DNA from: Desulfocarbo indianensis
GTDB taxonomy: Bacteria; Desulfobacterota; Desulfarculia; Desulfarculales; Desulfarculaceae
Reading direction: 5' to 3'
NCBI GenBank assembly: GCA_001184205.1
Contig: LBMP01000001.1
Span: forward strand, 477,365 to 541,364
DNA: 64,000 bases
The position numbers and the translations under genes were made by a program. Numbering within the stretch: the first letter of the stretch is position 1; each line of letters begins with the position of its first letter. Below the pieces are notes generated by a model that was given only the letters and a program-made list of their open reading frames with translations, was not told where the DNA came from and searched no databases. This document shows, piece after piece, positions 28,724 to 60,206 of this stretch.

Positions 28724-30628
28724 CTAATTCTTGCGCAGCACCCTTTCGTCGCCCAGGCGCATGGTGAGCCCCTTGGTATCGAAATGCTCCAGGAGCGGGA
28801 TGACGTATTTGCGGGAAAGCCCTATCATTTCCTTGAATTGCGGCGTGCCGACGCGCTCATGGGCCTTTAGATGTTCCACCAGACGCCCCTGGATTTCCGC
28901 CAGGGCCGGGGTGTGGTAATAGAGGTCTTCCTTGATGCGGGTGAGCACCCCCTCGTTGACCAACACGCCCACTATCTGCTTGGCCTGCTTGGGGTCCTCC
29001 CCCTGGATCACGTCCTTGAGATTGGGCGGCGAGGCGCCCGCCTGCACGTAGGCCTTTTCTATGCGCTCGCGCAGCTTGGCGTCGTCGGCCGCCAGGCGCA
29101 CCTGGTGGGTGGGCAGGCGCAGCAGGTCCTTTTCCGCCACCAGCTCGCCGCCGGTGGCGAGCCTGTTCAGCAGGTGGGCGAAGAGCTTGGCCTCGAAGCC
29201 CCGGCCCAGGCGCTGCTTCAGCTCCTCGCGGGGCATGCCGGGCTTCAGCGGCTGCTGCTGGTGGAACTGGGCCACCAGCTCCAGGGCCCTTTGCATGAGC
29301 TCGTCCTGCACCTGGCCCGCGATGAGGCGGCCGCCTTCCTTGTCGAAGCGCACCAGCTCCTGCTTGGATAGCATCTGGTTGATGAGGGCGTCCAGATCCT
29401 TGGGGGACAGGGCCACCAGGCGCACCAGTTCGCCGGCGGTCACCCCCCGTTCGCCGGCCAGGCGGGCCATCACCGCCACCTTGTCCACGGCCTGTCCCTG
29501 GCGCAGGGTGGCCAGATCGGCCATTATCTCGGGCCGTCCCCGCTTGTGGCGGCCGGGGTGGGGATGCAGGATCACCCCGCCGGCGATGGTGTGCACCGGC
29601 GAATAGGAGCGCAGCACGTAGCGGTCGCCCGCCATCACCGCCACCGGCTGCTCCAGGCGCACCTGGCAGAACACGGTCTCGCCCGGCTTCAGCTCCTCCC
29701 GGTCCAGGGTGTGCACCCGGCCCATGATCTCCACGCTGCCGGAATGAAAACGTATGGGCGCGCGGTGCTTGATGGGCCGCGCGATGGTCTCCAAAACCTT
29801 GACCTCCACGTCCACCCACAGGCTGGGCACCAGGGAGCCCGGCGTGGCCAGCACGTTGCCCCGCTCGATGTTCTCCTTGTCCAGGCCTTGCAGGTTCACC
29901 GCCGTGCGCTGGCCCCGGCGGGCGCTCTGCACCTCCAGGTTGTGCACCTGCAGGCCGCGCACCTTGCTGGTGAGCCCCTGGGGATAGATGGTCACCTCCT
30001 GGCCCACCTCCACCCGGCCGCCGATGGCGGTGCCGGTGATCACGGTGCCGAAGCCCTTCATGGTGAATACCCGGTCCACGGGCAAACGGAAGGGGCCGCT
30101 GGCCGGCTGCTCCTCCAAATCCTGGGCCAGCTTGTCCAGGGCCTGGACAAGCTCGGGCACGCCGTTCCCCTTGACGCTGGAAACCGGCATGATGGGCGCG
30201 CCTTCCAGGAAGCTGCCCTCCAGGTATTCGGCCACGTCCTCGCTGACCAGCTCCAGCCATTCCTCGTCCACCATGTCGGCCTTGGTCAGGGCCACCAGGC
30301 CGCGCTTCACGCCCAAGAGGCGGCAGATGTCCAGATGCTCCCGGGTCTGGGGCATGACGCCCTCGTCGGCGGCGATGACCAGCATCACCAGATCGATGCC
30401 CGCCGCGCCGGCCACCATGTTCTTCACGAATTTCTCGTGGCCGGGCACGTCCACGATGCCCAGGCGCAGGCCGGAGGGCAGGTCGAGATGGGCGAAGCCC
30501 AGCTCGATGGTGATGCCGCGGGCCTTTTCCTCTTTCAGGCGGTCGGTCTCGATGCCGGTGAGCGCCTTCACCAGGGTGGTCTTGCCGTGGTCTATGTGGC
30601 CGGCGGTGCCGAGGACGAGCTGTTTCAT
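28724..30628 (-). CDS. selB: Selenocysteine-specific elongation factor SelB
   Basis: This 634-residue GTPase carries Sec-tRNA to the ribosome at UGA codons that have a SECIS hairpin. The G domain has [19 protein letters not shown] (G1), [11 protein letters not shown] (switch I, SelB-type), [13 protein letters not shown] (G3) and [11 protein letters not shown] (G4). EF-Tu-like domains 2 and 3 follow ([18 protein letters not shown]), then a C-terminal part with winged-helix repeats that bind SECIS RNA ([20 protein letters not shown]). The ATG at 30628 has GGAAAGG at good spacing. Its presence shows that this genome inserts Sec and supports the three UGA-containing genes at 52.8-60.2 kb. selA, selD and the Sec tRNA are not in the window. 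Confidence 0.97.
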
Positions 30629-52514: not shown

Positions 52515-52769
52515 CTAATCGCCCTCCTCCACGGCCTCTTTTTTTATGGCCCGGTATTTATCCCGGTCGCTGATTTTGCGGGCGGCCGCCTCGCGGGCGT
52601 CCTCCTCGGTCAGGTGTATCTCGCCGCATTGGGGGCAAGCCAACTCCACGTCGGGACCCATGGCCCGGGCGCGTATCTCGTCCACGGTCATATGCTCCAC
52701 CGCGCCGCACTTGGTGTCCACTCTTTCCACGCGCACCTTGGTGCGCTCCTTTTTCTTTTTTTCAGCCAT
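52515..52769 (-). CDS. Small CxxC protein downstream of mvhA
   Basis: This 84-residue, highly charged protein (MAEKKKKERTKVRVERVDTK at the start, then KCGAVEHMT and ELACPQCGEIHLTEEDAREA) has a CPQC motif plus a single cysteine. The set resembles half a zinc ribbon and could bind metal as a dimer. A good GGAGAG ribosome site lies before the ATG. It starts 50 bp after the mvhA stop on the same strand, so it may be the last gene of the hydrogenase operon. I do not recognise a family. Confidence 0.7.
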   Translation of the reverse strand: MAEKKKKERTKVRVERVDTKCGAVEHMTVDEIRARAMGPDVELACPQCGEIHLTEEDAREAAARKISDRDKYRAIKKEAVEEGD

Positions 52770-52819: not shown

Positions 52820-54274
52820 TCAAGCGCCGGCCGCAGAACCGCCCAGCAAACGTCCCTTGCCGTCGTATACCTCGATGTCCACCACGCGGCCGCCGTCCAG
52901 GCGGTGAGTCGCGCAGCTCAGTCAGGGGTCGTAACAGCGGACGGCCATCTCCACTTGGTTGAGGGCCTCCTCGCTCACCTGGCCGCCCTTGATCGCGTCC
53001 AGGGCGGCGCGTCGCACGCTCATGTTCATGGGGGCGAGGTTGTGGGTGGTGCCCACGATCATGTTGGCCGAGGCGATGCAGCCGTCGTCGCCGGTGACGT
53101 AGTCGTGGATCAGGCTGCCCCGGGGCGCTTCCACGCAACCCACTCCGCGCCCCGCCCTGGGCTCCACCGGGTTTCGCACCAGGGGGTCGGTGATGGTTTC
53201 ATCCTCCAGTATCTCCAACACCCTCTCACAAGCGTACACCAGCTCGATGAGCCTGGCCCAATGATACAGGGTGGTGCTCTGGGCCGGCCGGCCGAAACGC
53301 CGGCGGAATTCCTCCAGCTCGGCCTGGGCCAGGGGGGTGTTGATGCGGTCGCACACGTTCAGGCGGGCCAGGGTGTTGCTCCGGTAGATGCCCTTGGGCG
53401 CTTCCAGGTCCATGGAAAAGCCCTCGCCCCAAACCCTGGCGTAGGGGAACTTGCCGTAGGACCAAGTCTCCACGCGCTCCCCCAGGAAATCGGCGTATTG
53501 CCGGCAATTGAAATCCAGGTAGGAGCCGTCGGGCTTCATGAGCCGCAGCGCGCCGTCGAACAAATTGAGCGAGCCGTCGGCCGGGTCCACCAGGCCCAGG
53601 AAGCCGGTGGTGATCCGGCCCAGGCTCAAAGCGTCCTGGTCCAGCTTGGCGAAGACGTTTTCCTTGGCGTACTTCATGCAAAACTTGGCGAACTCCAGTT
53701 GCTCCCCGGCCCCGGCCAAGAGTTCGTCGCGCTCCTTTTGGCTCATGGGCTTGGCGAAGCCGCCGGGCACCATGGCCACGGGATGAATCACCTTGCCCGC
53801 GAAGCGCTCCAGCATCATCTGGCCGGCCTGGCGCATCTTGACCACCTGGGCGGCCAGCTCGGGCGCGGCCTGGGCTAGGCCCAGGACGTTCCTTATCTTG
53901 TAATCCGCGCCGGCCCCCATGACGAAATCCGGCGCGGCCAGAAAGAAGAAATGCAGAATCTTGTCGCTGATGTGGGCCATGACCTGCATCAGCTCGCGCA
54001 GCTTGCGGCCCGCCGGGGGAACCTGGGCCCCGAAGCACTGGTCCACCGCCTTGTTGGCGGCGGTGTGGTGCATCCAGGGGCAGATGCCGCAGATGCGGCT
54101 AACGATGCGGGGCACTTCCTCGGCGGGGCGGCCCTCGATGAATTTCTCGAACCCGCGCATGGCCATTATGTGCAGCTTGCTGTCGGCCACCCGGCCCTGG
54201 TCGTCCAGCTGTATGGAAATGCGCGCGTGCCCCTCGATGCGGGTCACCGGCTGGATGTTGATGGTTTTCGCCAT
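52820..54274 (-). CDS. mvhA: F420-non-reducing (Mvh/Vhu-type) NiFeSe hydrogenase large subunit, selenoprotein
   Basis: This is the nickel-bearing subunit that splits H2. The N-terminal L1 motif RICGICPWMHH supplies Cys62 and Cys65. The C-terminal L2 motif should read DPCxxCxxH, but the frame has DP-UGA-LSCATH, so residue 451 is selenocysteine and Cys454/His457 follow. After UGA (52924-52922) the frame stays open for 33 codons to a TGA at 52820. The segment RLDGGRVVDIEV after the His is the expected C-terminal peptide removed by the maturation protease. Full length is 484 residues. A conventional call stops at the UGA and loses the active-site motif. Neighbours are MvhG, MvhD, HdrA and a protease. 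Confidence 0.95.
52890..52904 (-). promoter_or_regulatory. SECIS-like hairpin of mvhA
   Basis: Starting 18 nt after the UGA, CCGCC pairs with GGCGG around the loop UGGAC. The place and size fit bacterial SECIS elements, which lie in the coding sequence just after the UGA and bind SelB. The fit is by eye only. Confidence 0.5.
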
Positions 54275-54286
54275 GAGCGCCTTCCC

Positions 54287-55228
54287 TCACTTGGCCGCCG
54301 GCCGGGGGCGCAGCCGGCCGTGCGCTCCGGAAAAGCGCAACAGGCCGCCGGCGCGGTCGGGCAGGGTCTTGATGTCGATGCCGTTGGAGGCCAGGGCGTT
54401 CAGCATGTCCAGCATCTGGTTGCCGTTTTGCCGCACCGGGCCGTAACAGCCCCGGCAGGGCACCCTGGCCTTAAGGCAGCGGGGGGCCTCGCCATCGGCC
54501 CCGGAGCAGCCGGCCCGGGTCACCGGCCCCATGCACAAGAGGCCCTGCTCCAAGAGGCAGCGCATGTCGGCGATGGGCTTGGCCGGATCGTACTGGGCGT
54601 TCTGCAGGAAACGGCGCACGCTTTTCAATTGGCCCTTGCCCTGCCGCACGGTGGGGCAGGCGTCGCACACGCTCTTGTGGGGCAGCGCCGGCTCACGGCC
54701 TTCCAGAAAAGCCAGGACGGCCTCGGCGATGTGGTCCGGGTGGGGCGGGCAGCCCGGCAGATAGATATCCACCTTCACCTTCTCGTCCAGGGCGTAGACC
54801 CGCTCCAGAAAGGGCGGCACGGTTTCCGTGGGGTCGGGGGCGGGGTCGTTGGTCTCGCATCCCCGGTAATAGCGCTCCATGAGCTCGGCGTTGGCAAGGC
54901 CGTTGATGAGGGCCGGGATGCCGCCGTGGGTGGCGCAAGTGCCCAGGGCCACCAGCGTGCCGCAATTGGCGCGCATGGCCTGCAGCACCTCCAGGTGCTC
55001 CTGGTTGCGCACCCCGCCGGAGACGAGGCCCAGCTCGGCTTGGGGAATCTCCAGGCGTTTCAAGTCGCCGTCGCCCAGTTGGCCAAAGTATTTATGATCC
55101 ATGAGCAGCGGCATGTGCACGAAATCCAGTTGGGGCGCCAGGGCCAAAAGCCGCTCCCCCAGATTCAGGATGGCCACCTCGCAGCCCGAGCAGGAACTCA
55201 GCCCTTCTTCCGCCACCCGCAGCGCCAT
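54287..55228 (-). CDS. mvhG: Mvh-type hydrogenase small subunit
   Basis: This 313-residue subunit carries iron-sulfur clusters from the NiFe site. The proximal cluster uses Cys13 and Cys16 in LSSCSGCEVAIL and later Cys in ALGTCATHGGIPALI and LPGCPPHPDHIAEAV. Further cysteines in MRCLLEQGLLCMGPVTRAGC, KARVPCRGCYGPV and CDACPTVRQ fit the medial and distal clusters. The ATG at 55228 overlaps the mvhD stop by one base (TGATG); the longer upstream frame is the mvhD shadow. Confidence 0.94.
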   Translation of the reverse strand: MALRVAEEGLSSCSGCEVAILNLGERLLALAPQLDFVHMPLLMDHKYFGQLGDGDLKRLEIPQAELGLVSGGVRNQEHLEVLQAMRANCGTLVALGTCATHGGIPALINGLANAELMERYYRGCETNDPAPDPTETVPPFLERVYALDEKVKVDIYLPGCPPHPDHIAEAVLAFLEGREPALPHKSVCDACPTVRQGKGQLKSVRRFLQNAQYDPAKPIADMRCLLEQGLLCMGPVTRAGCSGADGEAPRCLKARVPCRGCYGPVRQNGNQMLDMLNALASNGIDIKTLPDRAGGLLRFSGAHGRLRPRPAAK

Positions 55229-55665
55229 CAGGCCACCTCCTGGGCGTCTTCCGGCCGGGTCGGCCGGAAGGGATTGGGCCCCAGGCCGCGCACCGCCTCG
55301 GTCATCTCGGTCACCACCTCCACGAAGCGCTCCGCCTCCGCCGAGGAACACCAGGCCAGGCGGAAACGCTCCGGCTCCAGGCCGTAGGCGTCCAGCATTT
55401 CCTCCACCACGGCCAGCCTGGCCTGGGCCTTGATGTTGCCGTCCAGGTAATGGCACTCGCCGGGGTGGCACCCCAGCACCATCACGCCGTCGGCGCCCTT
55501 GCTGAAGGCCTCCATCACCAGGTTGGGGTGCACCATGCCGGAACACATCACCCGCACGATGCGCAGGTTGGCCGGATACTGCATGCGCGAGGCGCCGGCC
55601 AGATCCGCGGCCGCGTACGAGCACCAGTTGCAGCTGAAGGCCAGTATCTTGGGTTCGAAAGCCAT
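55228..55665 (-). CDS. mvhD: MvhD/HdrA-linking [2Fe-2S] subunit
   Basis: This 145-residue protein passes electrons between the hydrogenase and HdrA. The FrhD/MvhD pattern is clear: FSCNWCSYAAADLAG (Cys12, Cys15), RVMCSGMVHPN (Cys41), MVLGCHPGECHYLDGN, and WCSSAEAERFVEVV near the end. In some selenoprotein operons this subunit also has Sec; here all cysteines are standard codons. It starts 12 bp after hdrA and overlaps mvhG. Confidence 0.95.
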   Translation of the reverse strand: MAFEPKILAFSCNWCSYAAADLAGASRMQYPANLRIVRVMCSGMVHPNLVMEAFSKGADGVMVLGCHPGECHYLDGNIKAQARLAVVEEMLDAYGLEPERFRLAWCSSAEAERFVEVVTEMTEAVRGLGPNPFRPTRPEDAQEVA

Positions 55666-55677
55666 GGTTAAAATCTC

Positions 55678-58600
55678 CTAGGCCAGGGCCGCCGCCACCT
55701 GGGAAGCCAGTTGCTCATAGGTGAAGCCCGCCACCTCCACCCCCAGCTTGGGGCAGGTGGCCTGGCAGCAGCCGCAGCCCTTGCACTTGGCGGCCTCTAT
55801 CCGCACCAGCTTCCTGCCGGGCTCTCCTTGCACTTCCTCCAAGGTGATGGCGTGGTAGGGACACACGTCCACGCAAAGGGCGCAGCCGTCGCAGCGCTCC
55901 TCTATCACCCGCGCCTTGATGGAATCCAGGTCTATGCGGGTCTTGGCCAGCACGGTGGCGGCCCGGGCCATGGCCGCCTGGGCCTGGGTCACGGTCTCCT
56001 CCACCGGCTTGGGATAGTGGGCCAGGCCGGCCAGGAAAAGGCCGTCGGTGGCGAAATCCACCGGCCTCAGCTTGGCGTGGGCTTCCTGCAGGAAGCCGTC
56101 GGCGTCCACCGGCAGCTTGTAGATCCGGGCCAGCTCCTTGTTCAGGTCGTTGGGCACGATGGCGGTGGCCAGGATGAGCACGTCGGTGGGAATGCGGAAG
56201 GGCTCGTGCAGCACGTGATCCCAGACCAGGACCTCCACCATGTCCGGGTTGTCCAGGCGCAGGCGGGGCTTTTCGTGCATGTCGTAATTGATGAAGACCA
56301 CCCCGGCCTCGCGGGCCCGGCGGTAGACCTCCTCGCGCTGGCCGTAGGTGCGGATATCGCGGTAGAGGATGAACACCTTGCGGGTGGGGTCCTGCTCCTT
56401 GAGCTCTATGGCCGCCTGCACCGAGTGGGTGCAGCACACCCTGGAGCAGTAGGGCCGCTCCGGCTCGCGGGAGCCCACGCACTGGATGAACACGAAGGTC
56501 TTGCCGCCCCGCACCCGGCTGTCGCCCAGGGTGTGCAGCTTGTCGAACTCCAGGGCGGTGAACACCCGCCGGTGCTCGCCGTAGCCGTATTCGCCGGGCT
56601 TGTGGGCCCGGCCGCCCACCGCCATGATGCCCACCCCGTGCTCCACCTGGGTTTCGCCCTGGGGGCCCTGGATGGTGGAAAGGAAATTGCCCACGAAGCC
56701 CTCGGCCCCGCTCACCTTGGAGTTGAGATGCACGGTGATGAGCGGATGGCTGGTCACCTTGCGGATGATGGAATCCAGCTTGCCCTCCACCGGCTCGCCC
56801 CGCCAGGTCTGGTAGAGGTGCAGGGCCGAGCCGCCCAGGCGGCTGGTCAGCTCCACCAGATGCACCGGATAGCCCATCTCGGCCAGGCCGTGGGCGCTGA
56901 CCAGGCCGGCCAGGCCGCCGCCCACCACCAGGGCGCTCTGCTTCACCTCCACGGTTAGCGGCGGCGCCGGGGTTAAAAGCGCCACCTTGGCCACGCTCAT
57001 GCGCACCAGGTCCTTGGCCTTTTCCGTGGCCTTTTCCGGCTCGGCCTGGTGCACCCAGGAGCCCTGGTTGCGGATGTTGGCCATGTCCAGCAGGTTTTCG
57101 TTGAGGCCCGAGGCCTTGAGGGTCTCCTTGAACAGGGGCTCGTGGGTGCGGGGGGTGCAGGCCGCCACCACGATGCGGTTCAGGCTTTGCTCCTGGATGG
57201 TCTTCTTGAGGAGCTCCTGGGTGTCCTGGGAGCAGGTGAAAAGATTGCGCTCCACGTGGGCCACCTTGGGCAGCTTGGCCGCGTAGGCGGCCAGCTCCTC
57301 CACGTCGATGACGCCGGCGATGTTGTTGCCGCAGTGACAGACGAACACCCCCACCCTAGGCTCCTCGCCGCGCACGTCGCGCTCGGGCGGGAAGCGCTTT
57401 TCCCTGGTGAGGCTGTGGCGCACCCGGGCCAGGGGCAGGGACGCCGCGGCGGCGGCGGCCGAGGCCTCGGTCACCGATTGGGGGATGTCGTGGGGGCCGG
57501 CGAAGGCGCCCGAGACGAACATGCCGGGCCGCCCCTTGGCCTGCACCGGCTGGAAGCCGCCGCGTTCGGCGAAAAGGTTTTGATTGAGCCCCACCTTGCA
57601 GCGCCCGGCCAGCTCCGCCGCCGAAGGCGGCGTCTCCAACCCCACCGAAAGCACCACCAGGTCGTACTCCGCGCCCACCTGCTTGCCCCGGTCGGTGATG
57701 TAGCGCAGGTACACGCCGCCGTTCTGCTCGGCCGGCTCCAGGGAATGGACCCGGCAGCGGCGGAACTTGACGCCCGCCTCCTTGGCGCGGTTGTAATAGC
57801 GCTCGAAATCCTTGCCGTGGGTCCGCATGTCCACGAAAAATATGGACACGTCCAGGTCGGGCTCATGATCCTTGGCGATCATGGCCTCCTTGAGGGCGTA
57901 CATGCAGCACACCCCGGAGCAATAGCCGTGGCCGGCCTTGTTGAGGTCGCGGGAGCCCACGCACTGCAGAAAGGCCATGCGCTTCACCGGCCTGCCGTCG
58001 CTGGGCCGCGCCAAACGGCCCTCGGTGGGTCCCGAGACCGAAAGATAGCGCTCCAGCTCCAGGGAGGTGATGACGTTGGGGAACACGTCATAGCCCCAGG
58101 TGCGGATGCCCGCGGGGTCGAAGGGCTTGAGGCCGGGGGTGAGGATCATGGAGCCCACCCGCACGGTCTTTTCCCTGGGCTTCTGGTTGAAATCAATGGC
58201 CCCGGCCGGACAGGCCTGAACGCAGGCCCCGCACTTCCTGTTTTTCAGATAGATGCAGTTTTCCGGGTCTATCTGGTATTTCAGGGGCACCGCCTGGGGA
58301 TACTTCACGTAGATGGCCTTGCGCTTGCCCAGGCCCTGGTTGTATTCGTCGTCAACCTTCTTGGGACACTTGCGGGCGCATTCGCCGCAAGCGATGCATT
58401 TGTCCATGTCCACGTAACGGGGGTGCTCCAGGAGCCTCACCGTGAAGTCGCCGGCCTGGCCGGACACTTCCCGCACCTCCGTCAGGGTCATCAATTCTAT
58501 GTTCAAGTGCCGACCGCACTCCACCAGCTTGGGCGAAATAATTCACATCGAGCAGTCGTTGGTGGGGAAGGTCTTGTCCAACTGGGCCATGGCCCCGCCG

Positions 58601-58722
58601 ATGGCCCCGGAGCGCTCCACCAGGTAGACGTAGTAGCCGCCGTCGGCCAAGTCCAAGGCGGCCTGCATGCCGGCGATGCCGCCGCCCACCACCATCACCG
58701 CTCCGATCATTTCCTGGCTCAT
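55678..58722 (-). CDS. hdrA: HdrA, double-length flavoprotein, selenoprotein
   Basis: This 1014-residue protein is the likely FAD electron-bifurcating subunit. It starts at ATG 58722 ([10 protein letters not shown]) with AAGGAGC upstream. The first FAD fold has [20 protein letters not shown]. An in-frame UGA (58545-58543) is residue 60, in [19 protein letters not shown], where HdrA has Cys. Ferredoxin motifs follow (Cys109, 112, 115, 119; Cys156, 164, 167, 171). A second HdrA-like unit has [20 protein letters not shown] near residue 593 and ends with two 4Fe-4S sites ([11 protein letters not shown] and [11 protein letters not shown]). This is a tandem HdrA. Standard calling begins at 58524 and drops the FAD N-terminus. 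Confidence 0.94.
58506..58520 (-). promoter_or_regulatory. SECIS-like hairpin of hdrA
   Basis: Starting 22 nt after the UGA, AGUGC pairs with GCACU around the loop GGUCG. The loop resembles the GGUC loop of the Escherichia coli fdhF SECIS, and the distance fits. This is the best SECIS candidate of the three. Confidence 0.6.
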
Positions 58723-60206
58723 AACGCCTGCTCCTTGTCTGGGCGCGGATTGGCCGCGCCGCCGGGCAGAATCAGGGATTCGGCCACCAGCTCCCACAGA
58801 TACTTGACTTCGATATCCAGGTTGTATTCATGGCGAAGGCTCTTCTTGATCTGGTCACGGCAGTTGTGGCAGGCCGTCACCACCAGGCGGGCGCCGGTGC
58901 GCCTTATCTGCCGGGCCTTGAAGCGCCCGTAGAACACCCGTTCCTCGTGGAAGCTCATGGCCCAGGCCCCGCCGCCGGCCCCGCAGCAATAATTGCCCTC
59001 GTGGCTGGGATACATCTCCCGCAAGTCCGGCGCGCACTGCCTGGTCACCCAGCGGCCCTCCTCGGCGTAGCTTTTGCCGAAGGCCTTGAGCGATTTGCGG
59101 GTGTAGTTGCAGGGGTCGTGATAGGTGACCGCCATCTGGTGAATCGCCGGGTCCACCTGGATGCGGCCTTCCCGCAAATAGCGCTGCAACAGCTCCATCA
59201 CGTTGATCACTTCGAAATTCTTCAGGTCCTCGGCGAACCATTTTTGCAGACCAAGCCTGGTCGCGTAATAGGCGTGGCCTCACTCCGGCAGGAGCAGGGT
59301 CTTGCACTCCAGGCGGTGCATGTTCTCCACCACGCGGCCCACCAGGGTTTTCATGGCCTGGTCGTCGCCGGTGAACAGGGCCCAGTTGACCCCCTCCCAG
59401 TTGACCGAGGGGATGGTCCAGTCCTCGCCGGCCGCGTGGAATATCTTCCACCAGTGCTTCATGTCCTCGGGCTCGGCAAAGGGCTCCTTGGAGTTGACCG
59501 AGACCAGGAGATTGGCCCCCATCTTGTCCACCGGCGCCTCGAAGCCGGGACAGCACTCCTCGGCCATCTCCTCGCCCAGGTCCTCCAGCAGAAGGAGAAA
59601 ATCCTCCTGGGGAATGCCCAGGTTGTTGCCCCGCTCCAGGTCCATCATCACGCCCTTGTGCATGGGGTGGGGCACCTTTTCGCGCTCGCGCAGGCCCCGC
59701 ACCCGGCGCAGCAGGGAAACCAGCTCCACGTTCATGGGGCAGGTCTCCTCGCATTTGCCGCAAAGGGTGCATTTCCAGGGCCACTGGGATTCGATGAGCT
59801 GCTCCTCCAGGCCCAGCACCACCAGGCGCACCGCCTTGCGGGGGTCCAGGCCGTCCACCCCGCTTATGGGGCAGGCGCTGGCGCAGGAGCCGCAGGTCAT
59901 GCACACGTCGGCCCACTGGGGGGAGGGGCGCAGCCGGTTGGTGCGCTCGCCCAGCTCGCGCAGGGGAACGTTGAGGCCGTTGGCCTTGCCGGCCAGGGCC
60001 TCGGGGCTCATGCGGCGGAATTTGACCATGCCGGGGTCCAGGCCGAATTCATCGCACAGGCGGGTGAACTCGTCCTCGCTGAGCAGGATGCCCTTGCCCG
60101 GCGCGGGCGCGGCGTCCAGCTTGTTGGAATTGATCCAGTTGCGGATGGTGTTCCGGTGCACGCCCAGCTTGCGGGCCAGTTCGGACACTTTCACCTGATA
60201 CTTCAT
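58719..60206 (-). CDS. HdrD-like Fe-S/CCG oxidoreductase with N-terminal helix-turn-helix, selenoprotein
   Basis: This 495-residue protein joins three parts. Residues 1-57 form a MerR/excisionase-like helix-turn-helix ([20 protein letters not shown]). Residues 100-160 hold two 4Fe-4S sites (Cys102/105/108/112 and Cys146/149/152/156), as in HdrC. Residues 215-450 are HdrB-like: a first CCG-type site with Cys218, Cys219, Cys301 and position 309, and a second with HDPC (366), CCG (407-408) and CHNC (446, 449). Position 309 is UGA (59282-59280), read [16 protein letters not shown], where relatives have Cys. The frame continues open to 58719. It overlaps the protease gene and hdrA (ATGA). It probably reduces a disulfide-like acceptor for HdrA. 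Confidence 0.92.
59249..59262 (-). promoter_or_regulatory. SECIS-like hairpin of the HdrD-like gene
   Basis: Starting 17 nt after the UGA, GACCA pairs with UGGUC around a GGCU loop. Stem, loop size and distance fit a bacterial SECIS. Assigned by eye. Confidence 0.5.

Follow-up and report, generated by a model that had tools for sequence, protein, structure and literature searches.

A predicted selenocysteine form of the Mvh-type hydrogenase large subunit in an Hdr-linked operon of Desulfocarbo indianensis

The mvhA gene found in a 64,000-nucleotide stretch of Desulfocarbo indianensis DNA (the whole of this stretch is referred to below as the window) is predicted, with a probability of roughly 96 per cent, to encode the large subunit, in its selenocysteine (Sec) form, of a group 3c-like cytoplasmic [NiFe] hydrogenase of the Mvh type, belonging to the glpC-hdrA-mvhD-mvhG-mvhA operon of Desulfobacterota. 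Judged from sequence comparisons, the UGA at codon 451 almost certainly stands for Sec. The Sec reading of mvhA is secure and its novelty is low: this gene and its operon were already recognised in related sulfate reducers in 2006. The finding leaves the understanding of the enzyme as it was, and confirms the wide distribution of Sec-containing Hdr-linked NiFe hydrogenase operons among Desulfobacterota, many dozens of loci having a UGA in MvhA. Ordinary gene callers would end MvhA at 450 residues, and the nickel site would be lost. The features described in this work are listed in Table 1.

Table 1. Positions in the window of mvhA, its sequence elements, selB and the neighbouring genes
Feature	Position	Strand	Basis
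mvhA, hydrogenase large subunit, 484 aa with predicted Sec451	52820..54274	minus	translation with TGA as Sec; VhuA/VhuU and PDB matches
In-frame UGA, predicted Sec451, first position of L2 nickel motif	52922..52924	minus	TGA in 87/87 loci of first set; 127 TGA (window included) vs 24 TGC/TGT in wider set
C-terminal extension past His457, 27 residues and stop	52820..52903	minus	translation; chains 5xf9_D and 6qgt_A stop at homologous His
Predicted SECIS apical hairpin, CCGCC-UGGAC-GGCGG	52890..52904	minus	17 nt past UGA, loop begins 22 nt past UGA; comparative tests
selB, Sec-specific elongation factor	28733..30616	minus	TIGR00475, 392.9 bits, over cut-off; G000:C1:506097-507980
Hydrogenase maturation protease (HyaD/FrhD type), 161 aa	60203..60688	minus	TIGR00072 3.5e-33, over cut-off; frhD 1.8e-28
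GlpC/HdrD-like Fe-S oxidoreductase, 495 aa, in-frame UGA at codon 309 (59282)	58719..60206	minus	CCG-domain matches HmcF 3.2e-62, TmcB 3.7e-49
hdrA, 1014 aa, in-frame UGA at codon 60 (58545)	55678..58722	minus	NCBIfam HdrA2 1.1e-289
mvhD, 2Fe-2S subunit, Cys66	55228..55665	minus	NCBIfam VhuD 1.5e-44
mvhG, small subunit, 313 aa	54287..55228	minus	NCBIfam VhuG 5.4e-60
84-aa protein, lysine-rich, CPQCGE motif, directly downstream of mvhA	52515..52769	minus	sequence

In-frame UGA at the nickel-ligand position of MvhA

The mvhA gene is read on the minus strand from 54274 to 52820; the earlier note on this DNA had given no strand. Under the standard code (table 11) the frame closes after 450 amino acids. 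Translated with TGA as Sec, it runs on to the terminating TGA at 52822-52820, and the C-terminus reads ...VRCYDP-U-LSCATHRLDGGRVVDIEVYDGKGRLLGGSAAGA-stop. The L1 motif is RICGICPWMH (Cys62 and Cys65), and the sequence DP-U451-LSC454-ATH457 stands where the L2 motif DPCxxCxxH belongs. As far as sequence can show, the earlier note described the gene correctly throughout. Its claim that, in a large subunit of MvhA type, the UGA takes the place of an L2 nickel ligand was borne out by the translation and by the L2 alignment that had been proposed as a check, in which U451 falls on the first Cys of DPCLSCATH in the solved MvhA chains 5odc_F and 9sw2_F. The tail beyond His457 is exactly 27 residues long, as had been counted, and the resemblance to a protease-processed precursor agrees with the FrhD-like protease gene that heads the operon.

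In comparisons with NCBIfam, MvhA matched VhuA (1.2e-135, residues 4-426) and VhuU (2e-9, residues 433-460), the VhuA score of 452 bits lying under the methanogen equivalog cut-off of 800. In the PDB it matched 9sfi_g (1.2e-118) and 5odc_F (2.4e-114 over 5-471). Homology over the whole chain and the encoding together with MvhG, MvhD and HdrA place the protein with the group 3c Mvh/Vhu hydrogenases, and the UGA at the first L2 Cys, with Cys62, Cys65 and Cys454 retained, is what is expected of a [NiFeSe] enzyme at the level of sequence. Identity with the periplasmic group 1 enzyme HysA was rejected (NCBIfam HysA, 163.8 bits against a cut-off of 780). No Cys paralogue of MvhA was found in the genome, the remaining matches being distant.

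The hairpin following the UGA and the selenocysteine machinery

In the bacterial SECIS model a hairpin lies just past the UGA, with a G in the apical loop and a spacing of 16-37 nt. The loop UGGAC of the hairpin that follows codon 451 begins 22 nt past the UGA. When the region of the window was folded as a single sequence the hairpin formed, with a stability that is not unusual (z -0.73), and an Rfam scan of the window gave no match at the gathering score. Because the window hairpin is by itself not exceptionally stable, the evidence for the SECIS element is comparative. Of 102 distinct Sec sequences, 100 contain the five-pair stem (CCGCC-UGGAY-GGCGG), and none of 20 Cys relatives does; 28 of the 102 would be expected to form it when the same peptides are recoded synonymously using each gene's own codon usage; L152, a sequence with a long branch and a short tail, was excluded from these counts. 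The stem pairs covary, the outer pair changing from C-G to U-A and the third from G-C to A-U, in places together with amino-acid changes (CACCACC..GGTGGT, CATCGCC..GGCGAT and CACTGCC..GGCAGA). RNAalifold, applied to 25 diverse sequences, recovered the same stem, with changes on both sides at three of the five pairs. By these comparisons, the hairpin directly after the UGA is a predicted bacterial SECIS element.

The complete gene set that marks a bacterial selenoprotein producer (selA, selB, selC and selD) is present in the genome, and the tRNA-Sec encoded by selC has the anticodon UCA. The selB gene is also in the window, at a distance of about 22 kb from mvhA, and selA, selC and selD are elsewhere in the genome. 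The selD gene itself contains one in-frame TGA.

Codon 451 in related loci

The sample in which codon 451 was read consisted of 80 loci from public genomes, to which loci found among 395 genomes of the phylum were added; the combined set of 127 TGA loci includes the window, and some of its loci represent one genome seen via two collections. The 126 further loci with UGA at this codon are spread across Desulfobacterota, and in them L2 and the tail follow in frame, the tails being about 28-37 residues long except at contig ends. Two cultivable relatives, Desulfoprunum benzoelyticum DSM 28570 and Desulfogranum japonicum DSM 18378, are among the carriers of UGA at this position. Since a conserved L2 motif and tail are encoded past the UGA in the Sec relatives, the UGA is not there by chance. 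With three sequences truncated before L2 and the divergent outlier L152 set aside, all relatives above about 59% identity have TGA, those between 56 and 59% are mixed, and those below 54% have Cys. In a tree built by a quick method, the deep branches of which are weak, the Sec and Cys sequences were split nearly cleanly (2 changes versus a shuffled mean of 16.6). In every Sec relative examined in Desulfobacterota the Sec lies within the same polypeptide. FruA and HysA are also single chains that include L2, as MvhA is here, and single-polypeptide Sec is the bacterial norm.

Three Cys-type relatives (L140, L154 and L155) stop exactly at the L2 His and have no C-terminal extension, so that proteolytic maturation would be unneeded. 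A fourth sequence, L136, ends in much the same way, but with Met replacing the His.

Other explanations of the UGA

If the UGA were a true stop, the product would be a large subunit of 450 residues that lacks L2 and with it the nickel site, acting as a scaffold or coming from a decaying gene. The table 11 reading frame does close at the UGA, and there is one distant family (f40) in which MvhA ends here despite a full-length SelB: at the Sec/L2 position L178 (genome G202) has TAG and L177 (G152) has TAA, and L176 (G057) ends four codons later. These frames stay open for about 448 residues and adjoin mvhG; the L1 motif of the G057 protein has also lost one Cys (RICGIS), and a fourth genus of the family (G092) retains the Sec form. 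It is possible that the truncated proteins are nickel-less MvhA subunits or come from decaying genes, and their sequences suggest that a shorter MvhA can be retained in some lineages. These cases display loss of the Sec site; by contrast, mvhA of the window is intact, and so is its tail, which has decayed in the truncated relatives. The in-frame L2, His and tail conserved in the 126 further loci, the SECIS hairpin conserved with compensatory changes and the complete Sec machinery of the genome all argue against termination, which we consider extremely improbable. It was also considered that the UGA might be a selenium-dependent switch between the complete NiFeSe enzyme and a subunit of 450 residues that has no nickel but still serves the Hdr complex, the latter form having become fixed in the relatives with TAA or TAG; this appears very unlikely.

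A sequencing error or a recent nonsense mutation converting TGC or TGT to TGA would take just one base change. This explanation, the probability of which is negligible, is refuted by the recurrence of TGA at the same codon in independent isolates and MAGs of many families (Desulfoprunum, Desulfofustis, Desulfacinum, Desulfogranum, Desulfamplus and others). Just as little weight can be given to decoding of the UGA as another amino acid, whether by general recoding or by a suppressor: no supporting evidence was found for it, UGA also terminates mvhA (52822-52820), the UCA-anticodon tRNA that was found is tRNA-Sec, and the UGA falls exactly on the Ni-ligand Cys, beside the SECIS hairpin.

Proposed function and related enzymes

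In the preferred reading, that of Sec at codon 451, SelB carrying Sec-tRNA would bind the hairpin past the UGA and Sec451 would be inserted, as judged from the UGA, the hairpin and the machinery. Alignment to the solved enzymes suggests that the Ni-Fe centre is ligated by Sec451, Cys62, Cys65 and Cys454. Once nickel is in place, the residues beyond His457 would be cut off by the operon's FrhD-like protease. Electrons from H2 would travel along the path MvhA-MvhG-MvhD-HdrA, with flavin-based bifurcation likely at HdrA, and the GlpC/HdrD-like protein probably stands in for HdrBC.

Oxygen tolerance and a bias towards H2 production are properties of the periplasmic group 1 NiFeSe enzymes. The earlier note had named these traits for the class; their transfer to a predicted Hdr-linked, cytoplasmic enzyme is not supported by the present findings, and the methanogen counterpart of such an enzyme oxidises H2. 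HysA, of group 1, resembles MvhA in having Sec at the same L2 position, but the relation is distant (187 bits or less), and HysA is periplasmic and has other partners.

Methanothermococcus Mvh (PDB 5odc) shares homology over approximately the full length and the MvhA-MvhG-MvhD-HdrA partners, but has Cys in L2, where Sec is predicted here. The methanogen VhuA/VhuU [NiFeSe] hydrogenase (PDB 9sfi) belongs to the same family and has Sec replacing the L2 ligand; in that enzyme L2 is on a separate peptide, VhuU (a 27-residue chain in 9sfi), whereas here there is one chain. This contrast, to which attention had been drawn before, is thus real, but the special status attached to it is not, a Sec in the same polypeptide being the rule in Desulfobacterota and published in 2006 and 2009. 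In a 2026 review, Sec-containing MvhA/VhuA/VhuU (UxxC) is an established family (PMC13188914).

Operon and neighbouring genes

The genes on the minus strand follow in the order maturation protease, GlpC/HdrD-like protein, HdrA, MvhD, MvhG and MvhA, and then the 84-residue protein, for which NCBIfam gave no match. Overlaps of one or four bases occur between several of the genes, as would be expected within an operon, of which mvhA is the last gene.

A five-gene selenoprotein operon, glpC-hdrA-frhD-frhG-frhA, has been described in Syntrophobacter fumaroxidans and Desulfotalea psychrophila (Zhang and Gladyshev 2006, PMC1794560); in the subunit names used by these authors, Sec is present in GlpC, HdrA, FrhD and FrhA of the deltaproteobacterial operon. 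The operon of the window has the same genes, with predicted Sec in GlpC, HdrA and the large subunit and with single-polypeptide Sec, and differs in having Cys, not Sec, in MvhD and a maturation protease gene preceding the operon. In the Desulfobacterium autotrophicum genome paper of 2009, MvhA2DG is presented as a cytoplasmic hydrogenase that contains selenocysteine and clusters with the Sec-containing HdrA1 (PMC2702500). A Sec hydrogenase beside a Sec-HdrA is likewise predicted here; MvhA2DG, however, also clusters with the periplasmic HysAB, and no HysAB was seen beside the operon here.

The in-frame UGA codons of HdrA and GlpC were compared across 58 relatives for which 9 kb or more of sequence was available. 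At the HdrA site TGA was found in 47, TGC in 2, and 9 were uncovered (TGA in 47/49 where covered); at the GlpC site there were 39 with TGA, 3 with another codon and 16 uncovered (39/42 where covered). In the window, codon 66 of MvhD is TGC (55470-55468, minus strand), i.e. Cys, while MvhA, HdrA and GlpC keep UGA. Across 83 loci with Sec-MvhA this codon is TGA in 74 and TGC or TGT in 9, the window being among the latter. At the N-terminus of the GlpC/HdrD-like selenoprotein, ahead of the Fe-S domains, there is a weak match to an excisionase/MerR-like helix-turn-helix (TIGR01764, 7e-6, below the cut-off).
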